Origin: Desulfobulbaceae bacterium
Lineage (GTDB): Bacteria > Desulfobacterota > Desulfobulbia > Desulfobulbales > Desulfocapsaceae
NCBI GenBank assembly: GCA_019163335.1
Contig: JAFLKM010000041.1
Coordinates: 2,273-45,608, forward strand
Direction: 5' to 3'
Length of the DNA: 43,336 bases
Below the pieces are notes generated by a model, which was not told the origin of the DNA, searched no databases, and saw nothing but the letters and a program-made list of their open reading frames with translations. Both the position numbers and the translations under genes were made by a program. Of this stretch, positions 23,156 to 42,989 are shown one piece after another. Each line of letters opens with the position of its first letter. The stretch's first letter is position 1.

Positions 23156-24961
23156 CTATGCAGCAAGCCTGATGGGAACAGCTTCAATCTTGTCAGCGAT
23201 ATCATCACTGGTGGCGGGCGTCAGGAGGATATCTTTGATACCATATTTCACAGCGGTTATCACCTTGCTACGAGTCCATCCCGGACCGGCAGCAATGAGC
23301 GGCAAGGAACAAGCGGAGCTTATCTTGATTGCCACTGCAAAGGCTTTTTCATTCACATCACTCATTACAAGAAAGACAGCCTTTACCTCACCGGGAAGGT
23401 AATCAACCACATTTTCCTTATAAGACAGAACCTTCACGTTGAGATGACGATGTTGAAGAAATTCGACAATCTTCACAGTCTCCATGGCATCATCACTCAC
23501 CACCAGTATATCAATGGACTGCGAAGCAGAACTGTCAAGCTGAGCCACAGAAGGCGCAGCTTTTTTCACCGACTCTTGCTGGACAGGCGCCTGCTCCTCC
23601 TGTTGCAACAGCCCTTCAAGCTGTAACAAGGCTGCTGGAAAAAGGGTTTGCACCTTCCCCATGGCCTTCCCGCCGATAGTCAGCGAGCTGCTGCTCAAAT
23701 AATACAACTGATTGGGGCAAGGCTCATCAGAGTCAATATCTACTTTCAACGGTAAGATCTTTTCAATGCCAGTCTTCACAAAACGAATTTTTTGGATATA
23801 TTGCTCTTCAAAAAGTGTGCTGTAAACCCCGGACATAATATTGGCTATTTCACCAAAGGCATCTTCAGTATCTTCACCAAACTCTTCGTCTAAGACGACT
23901 TTCTCAAGCTCTGCAGGTGGCAGCATAATCAGGGTGCCACCAATATAAATGGCATCTTTTAAGCCGACAAAAAGATAACTCTTGCCATCAAGTTCACCCA
24001 CCACATCCATATAGGCAAGGACCTGCTTTCCAGCAGCCTCTTCCATAAAGTAATCTTCTTTTGTTACAAGGCGACATTCCATATCAGTGAGAGCGACTTC
24101 CACACCCAGCAGGGCGCCCATTTCTTCTCCCATTTTCAGACGACAGGACTCCAGCAGGGCATCCACACGTTTATTGTGCTTCTTCGTATCAAAGTCAGGA
24201 ACAGATGCTTGCTTGACCTGTGGTTCCGGGACAGCAGCAGATTCTACTCTCCCGCCCTCCTCCCTCTTGGCAGTGATGGTACTTGGCGGCTTTAAGTCCT
24301 CCTCTTTAGTCTCAACTCTTTTGGCAGAAACAGTACTCACCGGTTTTGGCGGTGCAACCACAGGGGCAGCCTCAACTGCAGGTTCATCAGATTCAAGGCC
24401 AAAGGTTGCTGCCGGCAGAAGCATAACAAGATTTCCCATCTGCCGGTCATTGAGGGTCATCACTGATAAAACTTGATAATACAGCTGATCTGGCACTGGT
24501 TCGTCAGAATCAATAGTCACCTTCACAGGAATAATGACTTCCTGAGTCTTTCTGACAAAACGACAGCTGTCAGGGTACATCTCCTCGAACACCTTGGTAT
24601 AGGAACCGGCTATAATATTGGCGATTTCACCATAAGAATCCTCTGTATCTTCATCATATTTGCCGGAACTGACCACCTCGTCAAGGGAAGCCTCCGGCAG
24701 CATGATCAAGGTGCCGCCAAGACGAATGGCATCTTTTACTTCAAGCAGAAGGCAGCCCTGTCCCTGAATGTCGCCAGTGATATCGAGCTTGGCCGCAACC
24801 TGTTTTCCCGACAGTTGGTCAAAGGCATCTTCTTTGGAGATAAACTGCCGCTGAAAATCTGAAAGAATGAACGTCGCGCCAATAAGGCCACTGACCTCAT
24901 CCTGAATCCTCGTTCGCACAGATTCAAGAATCTTATCAATTCGTTGTTGCGCTTTTTTCAT
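23156..24961 (-). CDS. Double CheC/CheX-like domain protein with degenerate receiver
   Basis: A 601-residue protein. The first CheC/CheX-like domain (about 1-190) has the phosphatase motif as S109-x2-E112-x2-N115 (DSYGEIANIIAG). A Pro/Ala/Lys linker (about 190-260) contains the repeated pieces STVSAKR and STITAKR. The second domain (about 260-450) repeats the first, with E371 and N374 (EIANIMSG). Both share GKQV, KDAI and GGTLIMLP. A C-terminal receiver-like domain (about 483-593) keeps D490/D491 but has T581 where the conserved lysine should be (LLTPA) and a poor acceptor region (VMSD), so it is probably a pseudoreceiver. It likely dephosphorylates CheY-type regulators. The ATG at 24961 is chosen because the frame upstream (TTG at 25009) looks non-native; its ribosome binding site is weak. 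Confidence 0.82.
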   Translation of the reverse strand: MKKAQQRIDKILESVRTRIQDEVSGLIGATFILSDFQRQFISKEDAFDQLSGKQVAAKLDITGDIQGQGCLLLEVKDAIRLGGTLIMLPEASLDEVVSSGKYDEDTEDSYGEIANIIAGSYTKVFEEMYPDSCRFVRKTQEVIIPVKVTIDSDEPVPDQLYYQVLSVMTLNDRQMGNLVMLLPAATFGLESDEPAVEAAPVVAPPKPVSTVSAKRVETKEEDLKPPSTITAKREEGGRVESAAVPEPQVKQASVPDFDTKKHNKRVDALLESCRLKMGEEMGALLGVEVALTDMECRLVTKEDYFMEEAAGKQVLAYMDVVGELDGKSYLFVGLKDAIYIGGTLIMLPPAELEKVVLDEEFGEDTEDAFGEIANIMSGVYSTLFEEQYIQKIRFVKTGIEKILPLKVDIDSDEPCPNQLYYLSSSSLTIGGKAMGKVQTLFPAALLQLEGLLQQEEQAPVQQESVKKAAPSVAQLDSSASQSIDILVVSDDAMETVKIVEFLQHRHLNVKVLSYKENVVDYLPGEVKAVFLVMSDVNEKAFAVAIKISSACSLPLIAAGPGWTRSKVITAVKYGIKDILLTPATSDDIADKIEAVPIRLAA

Positions 24962-25175
24962 ACCATGCCGGGACTCAATAAAGAAGAAAGGACAAAAGAT
25001 GGCTGCCAATACGCTGCTTCACCTCTCGTATCGACCAAAAAAAATTATTATTTACAACAACTGCGCAACATACCCGAAATTGCCAGCCCGGTGAAAAAGA
25101 AACCAGTAGGATCCCAAAGAGTTATCTGGCAACACAAACGTACTTGAGTAACAGGGACGGGGACATCGTGCGATT

Positions 25176-25637
25176 TCAGCCATTCACTATATACTTGAGT
25201 TCCACAAGAAACTGGCCGCTCTCCATACCAAAGGGAACCGCAACCCTTCTTGCCGCCAGCATCCCGCCAACTCGATACGATTCGCCCACGACTGATGTGG
25301 GAATAGCAAGCTCAACCTTCACTCCATACCCGGCAAAAGAAATCTTCAGATTGCCAGCAATCATATTGGCAATTTCACCAATGGCATCCTTCACATCTTC
25401 ATTCAATGTATCAACATCCATGCCAAGAAAACCACTGGTAATGGCCATGGCCACTGCCGCCGGGCAATGCACAGCGAGCATTCCCCGAATATCGCCGCCG
25501 AGACCAAGCATCGAGGTAATATTGGATGTGATCTCAGCCCCTGCTCCCTCCAGCGGTTCTCCGACCACAAGATCAATCATCAGCATGGTGGAAAAAACAT
25601 CCGTGGCAGCACTTACGATATCTTGCCCTATATCCAT
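25176..25637 (-). CDS. CheX-like chemotaxis phosphatase (first paralogue)
   Basis: A 153-residue single-domain protein. It opens MDIGQDIVSAATDVFSTMLM, has GMLAVHCPAAVAMAITSGFL in the middle and the CheX active-site helix with E88 and N91 (DAIGEIANMIAGN). In CheX this E-x2-N pair positions water for removing phosphate from CheY. It is close in length and pattern to the neighbour upstream, so the two arose by duplication. No CheD gene is nearby. AAGGA lies upstream of the ATG. It acts in the cytoplasm, presumably on the CheY encoded two genes upstream. Confidence 0.88.
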   Translation of the reverse strand: MDIGQDIVSAATDVFSTMLMIDLVVGEPLEGAGAEITSNITSMLGLGGDIRGMLAVHCPAAVAMAITSGFLGMDVDTLNEDVKDAIGEIANMIAGNLKISFAGYGVKVELAIPTSVVGESYRVGGMLAARRVAVPFGMESGQFLVELKYIVNG

Positions 25638-25691
25638 TTTGCTATCTATCCTTGCGTATTAAATATCTAACCTTGATTTTAAGAAAAAGTA

Positions 25692-26147
25692 TTATTTTTC
25701 AAGCTGTAACTCAATTAAAAACTCACCGTTCTCGGTTTTGAAAGGCAGGATAGTCATATCAACATCGGTTGCAGCCTGAAACCCATACTCATGACCGGCA
25801 ATAGTAGACGGCAGAGAAAGCTCAATGTCTCTGCCGTTCTGGGACAGAATCGTTTTAACATTGCCACCAAGCATATTGGCTAGTTCACCGACGGCATCAC
25901 GAACATCGTCGTTAATTGCATCTACGTCCATCCCCAGAAAACTGCTGGTAATAGCCATGGCAACAGCATTTGGTATATGAATTGCGAGAACTCCTTTATG
26001 AGTTCCCGCAAGACCGATCATGCCCGTAATCGTATCATGCAGGGTTCCACTTTCTTGTAATGGAGGTCCGGCAACAGAAACTTCCATCATCACCATGGTT
26101 GAGAAAATTTCCATGGTTGACTCAATAATTTTTTCAGAGATATCCAT
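25692..26147 (-). CDS. CheX-like chemotaxis phosphatase (second paralogue)
   Basis: A 151-residue homologue of the next gene with the same layout: MDISEKIIESTMEIFSTMVM, GVLAIHIPNAVAMAITSSFL and the catalytic helix with E88 and N91 (DAVGELANMLGGN). It lies 54 bp from its paralogue and 116 bp after the CheY gene, all on the minus strand. AAAGGTG is five bases before the ATG. Having two such paralogues next to each other suggests distinct partners or heterodimerisation. The catalytic residues are intact in both. Confidence 0.88.
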   Translation of the reverse strand: MDISEKIIESTMEIFSTMVMMEVSVAGPPLQESGTLHDTITGMIGLAGTHKGVLAIHIPNAVAMAITSSFLGMDVDAINDDVRDAVGELANMLGGNVKTILSQNGRDIELSLPSTIAGHEYGFQAATDVDMTILPFKTENGEFLIELQLEK

Positions 26148-26263
26148 AAAGCACCTTTTTTTATCCGAAAGTCGTCAGCAGTTCAGAATATGCCATGCTG
26201 AACACCTTAAGAATACTAATTATTGTTTTAACCAACGCAATCGCACGCGGCTGCCATCCTGGA

Positions 26264-26638
26264 TTATTTTAAGAAAGGGCCAAGCACTTCATTCACCATG
26301 TCTGCAGTGAAGGGCTTTTTAATTGCCCCCACAGCCCCCAGAGACTTGGCCTCACCAATAATATCATCCCCGGTCTCCGTCGAAATCATAAACACCGGGA
26401 TACCTTTTATGTTGGGGCGATTAGCCTTTTCTCTGAGAAAAGAGATGCCATCCATGTTCGGCATATTAATATCGCTGAGCACGATATCCACCGACTCTTT
26501 CTCCAGTACCTCAAGAGCCTGCAGTCCATCGGCCGCCTCGAAGATGTTATCAAATTCGATTCCTGCCTGACGCAGTGACCTGCCGACAATTTTTCGCATC
26601 GTACTTGAATCATCCACCAACAAAACATTATTACCCAT
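26264..26638 (-). CDS. CheY-like single-domain response regulator
   Basis: A 124-residue stand-alone receiver. All key residues are present: D9/D10 (LLVDDSS), phosphoacceptor D56 (IVLSDINMPNMDG), S86/T87 (MISTETG) and K108 in IKKPF. No output domain follows, so it should act by binding a partner such as the flagellar switch protein FliM. GGAGG seven bases before the ATG at 26638 excludes the longer open frame. It is first in the run with the two CheX-like genes and the CheC-like gene, so it is their likely substrate. It diverges from the flagellar operon, which supports a motility role. Confidence 0.93.
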   Translation of the reverse strand: MGNNVLLVDDSSTMRKIVGRSLRQAGIEFDNIFEAADGLQALEVLEKESVDIVLSDINMPNMDGISFLREKANRPNIKGIPVFMISTETGDDIIGEAKSLGAVGAIKKPFTADMVNEVLGPFLK

Positions 26639-27078: not shown

Positions 27079-29487
27079 ATGAAAAAAATATTCTTTCTTC
27101 TCATAATTATCCTTACCGCCACTGCCGGACAGGCCTCGCCTCAGCCGAGTCTTCAGCATATCAGCAAGAGCTACGGCAACAACAGTGCCCAGCTCATCTG
27201 TTCTTTTACTTCCATCCCCGAATATTCCATTAATAACAATGACAAACGAGTCGATCTGATACTGAAAAACACACTGGCAGCCCCTGACCTTTCCACCCCT
27301 GAAACCGACGACAAGATAGTCAAAATATTGTCACTAACCAAGACAGACACTACGACGATCTCTCTTTTTTTCCGATATCCACCTCAGAAAGTCAAAGTTA
27401 CCCCAGGTCAAAAGGTGAACACATTGGTCCTCGACGTCCTGCTTGGGGACAGCTTTGCAACACCAGATCTTGCAGGAAAAAAACAGGAGAAGACTGTTCA
27501 GCAAAAAACAAAAAAAGATCTATCAAATCCAGTAAATGCATCACCATACGCTGGAAACTGGAAAAAATTTATCAAAGAATATGAGGCTGAAATCGAGATT
27601 GACCCAGCAGTGCAGTTTTCTCTGGTTCCCTTTCCAGCAATCACTCTACTTCCTCCGGAAGCAGAAAAAAATATCGAGATCCTCTCCCCTGCAATCAGAG
27701 AGGATGGCAGACGCTCCCTCTGGAACAACCTGATCCCTGTAATTATTGAACAGATAAATGCGGAGCAAGACCTGGACATCAGGAAAAAGCTGAGCCTCAC
27801 CTACGGCGAGATCCTCCTGCGTGCAGGCAACTATAATGAGGCATATAAACAATTTTTTCTTTTATCTACCCAATTTCCGAAAGAACCTGTCGGCATTCTG
27901 GCACGGTATCTTCTCCTGCACCTGCAGGCCGAATACGCAGACCCCTGGCTTGCTGATATCGAGCTGAAAAACTTTGAACCAACCCTGGACAAAAACAGCC
28001 CAGCCTTTCCCTGGTTGATTCTGAGCCGCATCGAAACCGCCCTGGCGACAAAACAACTTGACCAGATGCTGCCCTTGCTGCAACGCAATGACGTCTCCTA
28101 TCCTGCCGGAATCGACAAGCTCAAAGCCATGCGCCAGGGGGATTACTGGCTTGCGAGCAAGGATTTCAGCAAGGCTCTCGCCCTGTATCAGCCCCTCGAC
28201 AAAGCTGGAATACTCTCAGGAAACAGCAGCTCGCTTAATGGCTACTGCAGCGCCCTGTATCACCAAAAAGAATTTAAACAGGCGGCAGAGTGCTATGATC
28301 GTCTGGCCAAAGACGACTCAATCAATGTCCGGCAACATCTTGACATGATCAGCTTTCGAAAGGTCATGGCGCAACTTCATCTCACTCCCGAGGCTAACCT
28401 GCTCAACCGTTTTGCCCAGATTGAAATGACCTACCCCAATACCGATGCCGGCGCCAGGGCTGCCCTGAAACAAATTGACATCAAAATACTCACCCTCAAA
28501 AACTGGGAGAAACAGGCCCTCACCTACTATCACGCCATCGCAGAAACCGCTGAATCCCGCTCAATTCGAGAAGAAGCAGCCTTCAAAGAGGCGCTTACCT
28601 ACCATTTACTTGACCAGAAAGCTGAATGTGTTGAACATCTCATGGCCTTTCTCAAGGATTTCAAGAGCGGCTCTCTGCATAATACCGGACTGGCATTGCT
28701 TATTGACGTCCTGCCAAGCCTTCTCAAAGAACATAACAAGAATGGGAAGTATATTGAGACCCTGATACTGGCCAAACAAAATAAATTTCTGTTTGTGAAC
28801 AACTTGATCGACACAAGTCTGCTCGCCGAGATGGCCGAGGCCTATCGTCAACTCAGTTTATTCAATGAGGCCTCAAAAATGTACCGCTACCTCATGGAGG
28901 TTCACGCCCAGGAAGACGAGAACCCCTACTACCTCCCTCTGATCAAGATTGCTTACGAACAGGGGGACTCTGATCTGGTGGAAGTGTACGCAGACCAGTA
29001 TTCCTCCCATTTCCCCAAAGGGCAGGACAGAGACAGTATCCTTTATTATCGATTACAAAATCTATCGACCCACAATAAATATAAAGAGGCCTTAGCTCTC
29101 GTTTCAGGAAAGAATTTCAAAGACCCTAAATTCAAGCTCCTCGAAGCCTCTCTTTTATTTCATCTCAATGAGTACGCAAAGGCCAGGACAATTCTCGAAG
29201 AACTGAAAATCTCTGAGGCAACGCAAGAGCAGGACCCTCTTTTTATGCTTGCCGAATGCCATTATCAATTAAATGATCTTGATAAAGCGGAAAAACTCTT
29301 TCTTCCCTTACAGCAGGCCAAATTATTTCAGGATCAGTCGATGTTCAGACTGGCAGAGATTGCCCGACAAAAGGGACAAAAGGAACAGGCTCTAAAACTT
29401 TTCAAACAGATTGTCGAAACAGGAAAAAACCCTTTATGGCAGAAACTGGCCAAAAAGGAACTGGAGCTCACCGCGCTCAACAAATAA
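27079..29487 (+). CDS. Secreted TPR-repeat protein heading the flagellar operon
   Basis: An 802-residue protein with a signal peptide (about 1-19, ending GQASP). An N-terminal beta-rich region of about 100 residues (AQLICSFTSIPEYSI, TTISLFFRYPPQKVKV, NTLVLDVLLGD) resembles an AMIN-type domain. A low-complexity Lys/Gln linker follows, then about 600 residues of helical TPR-like repeats (for example GNYNEAYKQFFLLSTQFP, KQAAECYDRLA, DLDKAEKLFLPLQQA). It is probably periplasmic, and may bind peptidoglycan or the rod through the AMIN-like region. It lies 55 bp before flgB on the same strand and shares the candidate sigma-54 promoter. I do not know a named homologue; a role in assembling the envelope-spanning part of the flagellum is inferred from position only. 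Confidence 0.8.
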   Translation: MKKIFFLLIIILTATAGQASPQPSLQHISKSYGNNSAQLICSFTSIPEYSINNNDKRVDLILKNTLAAPDLSTPETDDKIVKILSLTKTDTTTISLFFRYPPQKVKVTPGQKVNTLVLDVLLGDSFATPDLAGKKQEKTVQQKTKKDLSNPVNASPYAGNWKKFIKEYEAEIEIDPAVQFSLVPFPAITLLPPEAEKNIEILSPAIREDGRRSLWNNLIPVIIEQINAEQDLDIRKKLSLTYGEILLRAGNYNEAYKQFFLLSTQFPKEPVGILARYLLLHLQAEYADPWLADIELKNFEPTLDKNSPAFPWLILSRIETALATKQLDQMLPLLQRNDVSYPAGIDKLKAMRQGDYWLASKDFSKALALYQPLDKAGILSGNSSSLNGYCSALYHQKEFKQAAECYDRLAKDDSINVRQHLDMISFRKVMAQLHLTPEANLLNRFAQIEMTYPNTDAGARAALKQIDIKILTLKNWEKQALTYYHAIAETAESRSIREEAAFKEALTYHLLDQKAECVEHLMAFLKDFKSGSLHNTGLALLIDVLPSLLKEHNKNGKYIETLILAKQNKFLFVNNLIDTSLLAEMAEAYRQLSLFNEASKMYRYLMEVHAQEDENPYYLPLIKIAYEQGDSDLVEVYADQYSSHFPKGQDRDSILYYRLQNLSTHNKYKEALALVSGKNFKDPKFKLLEASLLFHLNEYAKARTILEELKISEATQEQDPLFMLAECHYQLNDLDKAEKLFLPLQQAKLFQDQSMFRLAEIARQKGQKEQALKLFKQIVETGKNPLWQKLAKKELELTALNK

Positions 29488-41990: not shown

Positions 41991-42989
41991 TTGGAACCCA
42001 TTCTTTCCAGACAAGAAATTGCGGATCTGCTTTCCGCCATTAAAGAGGGGCGAGTCGCCATTGAGGCAGCGCCGTCTGAGCAAACGGCTAAATTCGCCAA
42101 TGCCGCCCCGATCAACCTCTTTCATGCGTCCAATAAAAGTAACTGCCAACTGCGGATTCCCAACTTTGATATCATTCTTGACTCCTTTGCTCAAAACTAT
42201 TCGATCTCTCTGACCAATCAACTGCAAAGAACCTTTACGATCAATCGAATCGCCATTGAGTGTTCCACCTTCCATGACTTCATGAGTTCTCAGAAGAACT
42301 CGGGGGCCATCGGAGTTCTCAATCTTGAGCCCTTAAAACAGGGTGCCCTCTGTATCCTTGACCAGCAGCTTTCTTTTACCTTGATCGAGATCATGCTGGG
42401 GGCATCCAGCGACCTTGAGCCCCTGAAACTCGATCGACACCTGACCACCATTGAACTTAACATCCTCAAATCAATCATGGCCAAGGCCTGTGATGACCTG
42501 AGCAAGACCTTAAAACCCCTGATAAAACTGAATTCCTCTCTTATCAAAGTCGAAAACAACCCCAGAATGGTTTCCATCACCGATGCCGAATCCGAGGTCT
42601 TTGTCGGTTGTTTCAAGGTTCAGATTAGCAATCTCTCAGGTGAGCTAAAGATACTGTTCCCCTTGGCGACCCTGGAACCACTGAAGGAAAAACTGAGAGA
42701 CCTGCTTTCCGTCAAAACCAGCAAATTCAGTGAATGGAGTGACCGAATCATTGATCAGGTTCTCGATATGCCCGCCACAATTATTGCCCAGTCAGGGACC
42801 ATCTCGCTCCCCCTGCACAAAATACTCTCTTTCAAGAAAGATGATATTATTCCACTGGACTACAATCCCAATGCCCCGCTTAGGGTGCTCATTGAAGAGA
42901 GTCCAAAATTCCTGGCAAAACCCGGGATGCACGCGGGGAAGAAAGCAATCAGCCTGACCGGCGTTCTTTCTTCTCCTGCCCGCGAATGA
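41991..42989 (+). CDS. fliM: Flagellar motor switch protein FliM
   Basis: A 332-residue C-ring protein. The N-terminal CheY-P-binding motif is present (ILSRQEIADLLSAI). The middle domain includes SISLTNQLQRTFTINRIAIE, IGVLNLEPLKQGALCILDQ and LIEIMLGASSD, where many FliM proteins have an FGGxG-type turn. The C-terminal SpoA-like domain ends the protein (ATIIAQSGTISLPLHKILSF, then KDDIIPLDYNPNAPLRVLIE). The family start pattern requires initiation at the TTG at 41991, with a weak GAG ahead of it. A 206-bp gap without a credible gene separates it from fliL. It is the expected target of the CheY encoded at 26264-26638. Confidence 0.93.
   Translation: MEPILSRQEIADLLSAIKEGRVAIEAAPSEQTAKFANAAPINLFHASNKSNCQLRIPNFDIILDSFAQNYSISLTNQLQRTFTINRIAIECSTFHDFMSSQKNSGAIGVLNLEPLKQGALCILDQQLSFTLIEIMLGASSDLEPLKLDRHLTTIELNILKSIMAKACDDLSKTLKPLIKLNSSLIKVENNPRMVSITDAESEVFVGCFKVQISNLSGELKILFPLATLEPLKEKLRDLLSVKTSKFSEWSDRIIDQVLDMPATIIAQSGTISLPLHKILSFKKDDIIPLDYNPNAPLRVLIEESPKFLAKPGMHAGKKAISLTGVLSSPARE

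Follow-up and report, generated by a model that had tools for sequence, protein, structure and literature searches.

A CheY-CheX gene cluster beside a flagellar operon of a Desulfobulbaceae bacterium and its tandem CheX protein ending in a receiver-like domain

The 43,336-nucleotide stretch analysed here (called the window; Desulfobulbaceae assembly GCA_019163335.1, contig JAFLKM010000041.1, positions 2,273 to 45,608 of the forward strand) carries on its minus strand a cluster of four genes, all intact open reading frames, that code for one CheY response regulator and three CheX-type proteins. Positions below are counted from the first letter of the window. Gene cheY (26264..26638) encodes a single-domain receiver of 124 amino acids (aa; Pfam Response_reg, 2e-24) whose phospho-acceptor D56 and residues N58, S86, E88 and K107 are identical in 33/33 aligned orthologues. 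Genes cheX1 (25692..26147, 151 aa) and cheX2 (25176..25637, 153 aa) both pass the cut-off of Pfam CheX (PF13690; 7e-24 and 2e-22, respectively), with the domain spanning most of each protein. CheX dephosphorylates phosphorylated CheY (CheY-P) through an E-x2-N motif. The motif reads ELAN in CheX1 (25875-25886) and EIAN in CheX2 (25365-25376), its Glu and Asn being found in 33 of 34 and 32 of 33 aligned rows; the remaining row is a gap in both cases. The closest solved chain to CheX2 is a CheX, 3hm4 (1.9e-19), and 1xko is also matched (4.3e-10). The last gene codes for a 601-aa protein that we call XX (23156..24961), which matches Pfam CheX in two stretches (2.7e-8; 34.2 bits for a cut-off of 27). 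Both of its CheX domains carry an EIAN motif, at 24617..24628 and 23840..23851 on the same strand, bringing the cluster to four E-x2-N motifs, one per CheX domain. An earlier annotation from the letters alone (the sequence-only reading) had described a CheY, a pair of CheX paralogues and a two-domain protein, with four phosphatase motifs in all, and the frames, Pfam matches and motif positions bear this out. Scans for promoter and terminator consensus gave numbers near chance (9 for a mean of 6.4, and 5 for 4.7), and none of the gaps within the cluster showed a terminator on the minus strand.

XX is not a stand-alone single-domain CheX; it joins tandem CheX domains to a C-terminal domain that the sequence-only reading overlooked. 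This segment (residues 479-601; 23159..23527, minus strand) has a receiver fold. Its best PDB chain in a profile search is CheY (3h1f, E 4.3e-7), and its structural model, of mean predicted local distance difference test score (pLDDT) 77.9, displays the (beta-alpha)5 order. Comparison of the model with receivers in Foldseek and VIA-align yields, among the matches listed, a probability of 1.00, template modelling (TM) scores mostly of 0.7-0.8 and Z-scores of 14-16. The model resembles CheY bound to a FliM peptide (4iga; TM 0.78/0.82, Z 14.5), no better than it resembles other receivers, and it also matches 4dn6, 4lda and 4dad, the latter named only as a pilus-assembly-related protein. An hhalign comparison of the domain with the cluster's own CheY gave a weak match (10% probability, E 0.00075, with a narrow CheY profile), and the PDB profile search together with the domain model settled the fold instead. 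A full-length XX structure predicted from an alignment of four close sequences had a mean pLDDT of 37.6 and was set aside.

The number of CheX domains per XX varies among the 39 genomes measured: 30 have two, six have three and three have a single one. XX also exceeds the CheC cut-off (24.4 bits for 22), with a best stretch of 17 residues; each XX domain has one motif, and a CheC domain carries two active sites. No SPOA/FliN domain was detected in XX, as FliMN_C gave no match at E up to 1, and NCBIfam gave no match over a cut-off, a weak sub-cut-off match to PleD covering 148-267. In one relative (G036, L118:5979-7078) XX is broken into two frames, one with CheX and one with the receiver, on either side of unknown residues; an assembly gap is the probable cause.

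The C-terminal domain is called here a pseudo-receiver because the phosphorylation residues D57, T87 and K109 are not conserved across its orthologues. Among 40 sequences, the D57 position is occupied by E (19), D (11), S (3), N (3), R (2), K (1) or T (1). The T87 position is A or V in 40/40, and the K109 position is T in 38, A in one and V in one, never Lys. Invariant residues are a Trp-Thr pair, one Glu and one Pro; beta4, alpha4 and beta5 are the best conserved elements, and alpha1, alpha2 and alpha5 are poorly conserved. These features bear on the proposal of the sequence-only reading that the cluster is a phosphate sink setting a very short signal lifetime. That proposal, which calls for a second phosphorylatable receiver supplied by the same CheA, found no positive support in XX: the family has D at the D57 position in 11/40 and lacks equivalents of T87 and K109. 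The window copy itself has Asp, with which a sink would still be compatible.

The cluster is conserved as a unit. Among 146 genomes of the order to which this bacterium belongs, PF13690 is matched in 110, the XX family in 40 and a cognate CheY (E 1e-30 or better) in 35, every one of these among the 40 XX genomes. The complete gene order cheY-cheX1-cheX2-XX is found in 31 of the 40 XX loci, 29 of which also have the divergent gene for a tetratricopeptide repeat (TPR) protein that lies beside the cluster in the window; this survey displays matches above 60 bits only. The nine incomplete loci comprise three at contig edges (G083, G140, G128), two without cheX2 (G061, G063) and the four genomes without CheW described below. 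Orthologous CheY proteins are 66-98% identical to that of the window, and the TPR proteins 30-87% where both are present. Synteny thus rules out that the paralogues are scattered in relatives, and a CheY served by several dedicated phosphatase domains, as the sequence-only reading saw it, fits the conserved order, the invariant CheY residues and the motif kept in all measured XX domains of genomes with CheW. From these sequence features we consider it very probable that the cluster is a CheY-P phosphatase module. In one genome (G089, L127) cheX2 is matched in a short open frame of 71 aa, possibly owing to a frameshift or sequencing error.

In the whole phylum, the XX profile is matched in 80 of 395 genomes, many through the receiver part alone. 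Among 20 loci that were fetched, E-x2-N is intact in 22/22 XX domains of 16 genomes; in four more (G217, G249, G277 and G303), set apart as no pseudo-receiver was matched in the protein and some hits are stand-alone CheX frames, the motif is intact as well.

In families f1 and f12 the cluster is linked to flagellar genes in the divergent arrangement of the window; six loci of f39 and f115 have it ahead of TPR-flgB-flgC-fliF-fliG in the same direction. Each of the 40 order genomes with XX also has a FliG match. When the 55 genomes sampled from f1 and f12 are pooled, 38 have XX as well as FliG and 17 have neither, with G124 scored as FliG-absent on a single sub-cut-off FliG_M hit. The cluster could instead serve a non-flagellar output, its flagellar neighbourhood being accidental. 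What speaks for this is that che rather than flagellar genes adjoin it in three other families: in G317 (f74) it comes after genes for CheA-CheW-CheR-CheB-CheD-HDOD, identified with Pfam; G362, G402 and G440 (f95) have a similar order by reading and BLAST; and among the order genomes those of f4 have it after CheW, MCP (methyl-accepting chemotaxis protein), CheR and CheB genes, to which G063 adds CheD and HDOD, the fetched stretch containing no CheA. The flagellar linkage in f1, f12, f39 and f115 and the FliG match in 40/40 genomes make a non-flagellar output very improbable. In these che clusters, G317 has a further CheX gene (L184:10309-10812, Pfam 7.8e-11) ahead of the cluster cheY, weak matches of similar size being present in G402 and G440, and cheD is separated from the CheY cluster by an HDOD gene (L184:11184-12062 and L119:5620-6483).

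The same neighbourhoods put into perspective the statement of the sequence-only reading that no CheA kinase, CheW, CheR, CheB, CheD or receptor gene lies nearby. It holds for the 26 window proteins scanned with Pfam (7 + 9 + 10, a subset of the open frames), among which no che or receptor gene was found beyond the four. It does not extend to the genome: since the clusters of some relatives follow CheA-operon genes, the missing kinase is a matter of location. The genome (3.2 Mb in 103 contigs) contains 12 CheW-domain matches. They fall into four loci, one each on contigs C1, C9, C16 and C18, and every locus includes a long CheA-type frame identified by its CheW domain and by reading. MCP matches number 16, of which 15 are over the cut-off, CheX/CheC matches are confined to the cluster studied here, and CheZ has no match in the genome. 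The kinase would therefore act in trans. The che proteins of relatives are closest to those of the C1 cluster, which holds its own CheY, for CheA (3/3), CheW (5/5), CheR (5/5) and CheB (3/3). The CheA-type proteins of contigs C16 and C9, 949 and 862 aa long, each have three CheW-profile stretches, probably amounting to two CheW domains.

A separation of XX from chemotaxis is suggested by a few genomes with flagellar genes. CheW is absent in ten of the 146 genomes of the order, and four of these ten have FliG (G022, G066, G112 and G145). XX is present in all four, in which no PF13690, cognate CheY or CheW-domain match was obtained. In the other 36 XX genomes, which have CheW, E-x2-N is intact in 76/76 CheX domains. 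In the genomes without CheW the catalytic Asn is replaced in 5/5 alignable CheX domains of three genomes (K and D; E; K and S) and the Glu is kept; the count takes domains of at least 60 residues and hence leaves aside G112, which has no alignable CheX domain and keeps the pseudo-receiver. The profile used was built from motif-bearing domains and found motif-less ones too. The pseudo-receiver lies within an open frame in all four genomes. On a TPR tree three separate changes are needed to account for G022, G066 and G145, the last being a long branch (G112, whose stretch gave no TPR match, is not in the tree). This tree was relied on rather than the genome-level comparison of 36 intact with four lost (p ~1e-5), which is uncorrected for relatedness and scores G112 as lost.

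These data give indirect support, limited to XX, to the idea of the sequence-only reading that the phosphatases have an output other than hydrolysis: XX is kept without its catalytic Asn where CheW is missing. One form of this idea is that XX is mainly a sensor or buffer of CheY-P, whose CheX domains bind CheY-P and whose pseudo-receiver relays to the motor, hydrolysis being secondary. The fusion of CheX to a domain that resembles a receiver but lacks conserved phosphorylation residues would suit it, as would the Glu kept in all five domains that lost Asn. The Asn kept in 76/76 domains where CheW is present implies, on the other hand, that hydrolysis appears selected, and the genomes without CheW yielded no cognate CheY to sense; we regard a sensor as improbable.

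The window also encodes the candidate docking site. Gene fliM (41991..42986, plus strand) specifies near its N-terminus a peptide, EIADLL (42015-42032), that could bind CheY and, by extension, the pseudo-receiver. The form [EQ]Ix[DE]LL was read by eye at the FliM N-terminus of 20/20 fetched proteins, taken from the four genomes without CheW and 16 others, as well as in the window FliM. All four genomes without CheW have EIAELL or EIADLL; the peptide is therefore kept there without a cognate CheY, and the retained pseudo-receiver is a candidate partner for it.

We privilege, by a small preponderance, the explanation that the four genes form a CheY-P dephosphorylation cluster of flagellar chemotaxis in which XX is docked at the motor and has a second role independent of CheY. 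A CheA encoded elsewhere, most likely in the C1 cluster, would phosphorylate the cluster CheY, and CheY-P would bind FliM. CheX1, CheX2 and both CheX domains of XX would hydrolyse CheY-P, ending the signal. The pseudo-receiver would be a docking or adaptor domain, most likely acting on the motor switch through the N-terminal peptide of FliM, and docking would place phosphatase activity at the motor as FliY does in other bacteria. After loss of chemotaxis XX would be kept for its motor-related role. The parts differ in strength. A CheY-independent role, which XX may have because it tracks FliG in f1 and f12 and persists in the four genomes without CheW, stands at about even chances on the genomic comparison, and docking of the pseudo-receiver on FliM is a tentative, rather doubtful step. 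We attach similarly low credence to a more specific version, in which XX is a motor-docked mimic of CheY: its pseudo-receiver would bind the FliM peptide without phosphorylation, bringing one to three CheX domains to the switch; the phosphatase sites would die when chemotaxis is lost and the mimic would stay as a constitutive motor component.

Several observations weigh against the explanation that we privilege. In the window XX the D57 position is occupied by Asp, and in the family the two positions of the acidic pair of the pseudo-receiver are D in 28/40 and 30/40 sequences. Its alpha5, counterpart of what we take to be part of the FliM face of CheY, is poorly conserved. A strict EIDxL pattern was matched in 0/20 of the fetched FliM proteins, and the FliM peptide may persist for another receiver or another reason. 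The assignment to C1 has small margins for CheW, CheD being closer to C18 in 3/4 comparisons. Cognate CheY was scored at E 1e-30 among at most 30 receiver candidates per genome. The che neighbourhoods of f4, G317 and f95 also count against it. In G511, a genome beyond those scored for CheW, E-x2-N is intact and the fetched 16 kb show no CheY. On the FliF tree three changes are counted, of which two are forced by well-supported branches, and G145 and G112 are long branches of unsure placement. In G066 a single CheX domain is in frame, and its profile match extends 138 bases upstream across a TGA. The ratio of non-synonymous to synonymous substitutions (dN/dS) of the CheX domains is 0.26-0.38 in pairs with G022 or G066 versus 0.12-0.25 in all five other pairs; that of the pseudo-receiver is 0.23-0.33 with G022, 0.12-0.18 with G066 and 0.07-0.15 in other pairs, a rise for G022. 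All values are below 1, but selection on XX of G022 and G066 is relaxed by this measure, and its slow decay in these two is possible.

The signs of decay, namely the raised dN/dS in G022 and G066, which includes the G022 pseudo-receiver, and the single CheX domain with a TGA inside the profile match in G066, would be expected under ordinary redundancy. The extra CheX proteins would raise CheY-P hydrolysis, as E-x2-N kept in all measured domains of genomes with CheW also allows; the pseudo-receiver would serve dimerisation or stability, and XX in genomes without CheW would be a vanishing relic. A relic is harder to reconcile with the open frame of XX, or of its C-terminal part, that each of the four genomes without CheW retains and that the TPR tree spreads over at least three lineages, with the agreement of XX and FliG in 55/55 genomes of two families, and with G112, which keeps the pseudo-receiver without an alignable CheX domain. 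Redundancy is accordingly judged unlikely, though it deserves serious weight.

Motor-docked XX, as we propose it, has partial counterparts in known systems. With CheX of Thermotoga maritima and Borrelia (PF13690) it shares the domain, the E-x2-N motif and the partnership with CheY; it differs from that CheX by two CheX domains per chain (one to three in relatives) and the pseudo-receiver. The atypical receivers of TadZ/CpaE and the second receiver of PleD, which we take to be adaptors, are structural matches of the pseudo-receiver (4dn6, 4lda and also 4dad); in XX the receiver is instead joined to CheX domains. FliY, the motor-switch member of the CheC family, is likewise a CheC/CheX-type phosphatase tied to the motor. 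In Campylobacter, Helicobacter and Leptospira, FliY lacks the phosphatase active sites according to the available part of one source (PMC6946799); it resembles in this the XX of genomes without CheW and is a precedent for a motor protein of the family retained without catalysis. The same partial text assigns FliY a SPOA domain (PMC6946799), where XX has a pseudo-receiver and is encoded beside its own CheY and two CheX.

Arrangements of cheX comparable to that of the window are on record. In the excerpted text of one study, the Campylobacterota F3 system has scattered cheX adjoining fliNO, apart from the cheA operon (PMC9321776); the location of cheX by flagellar genes is alike, and the excerpt does not contain a tandem CheX-receiver protein. 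CheA-CheC/CheX fusions of Leptospirae, mentioned in an extract of PMC10542144, similarly join a CheX-type domain to a signalling domain, which is a kinase rather than a pseudo-receiver. Excerpts of three further papers report two Desulfuromonas strains whose che clusters contain cheX and lie upstream of flagellar clusters (PMC8235581), one to four cheX genes in Geobacter genomes among the rows listed (PMC8396549), and Geobacter genomes without cheZ in one survey (PMC2577667). Our literature searches found no description of the tandem CheX-receiver protein.

The proposal places removal of CheY-P in a group of sulfur-cycle bacteria beside, and perhaps at, the flagellar motor, by way of a fusion protein for which no description was found. 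Genomes with flagellar genes and without a CheW match, in which XX persists minus Asn, offer a natural experiment in which catalysis and a second function may be told apart. If docking is true, XX would be a testable case of a receiver fold acting as a constitutive motor ligand, and if the pseudo-receiver mimics CheY it would set the motor bias independently of CheY.

The flagellar operon from which the cluster diverges, as the sequence-only reading had stated, runs on the plus strand from the TPR gene to fliM. Pfam supports ten flagellar genes on this strand opposite to the cluster: fliF, fliG, fliH, fliI, fliJ, fliK, flgD, flgE, fliL and fliM. Genes flgB and flgC were named by reading the sequence, outside the family search. 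The TPR gene at the head of the operon (27079..29487, plus strand) codes for an 802-aa protein with a signal-like N-terminus, as judged by reading, and is co-conserved with the cluster. Its product is kept alongside the cluster in Desulfobulbales-type genomes, and is found at 21-23% identity in f39 and f115.

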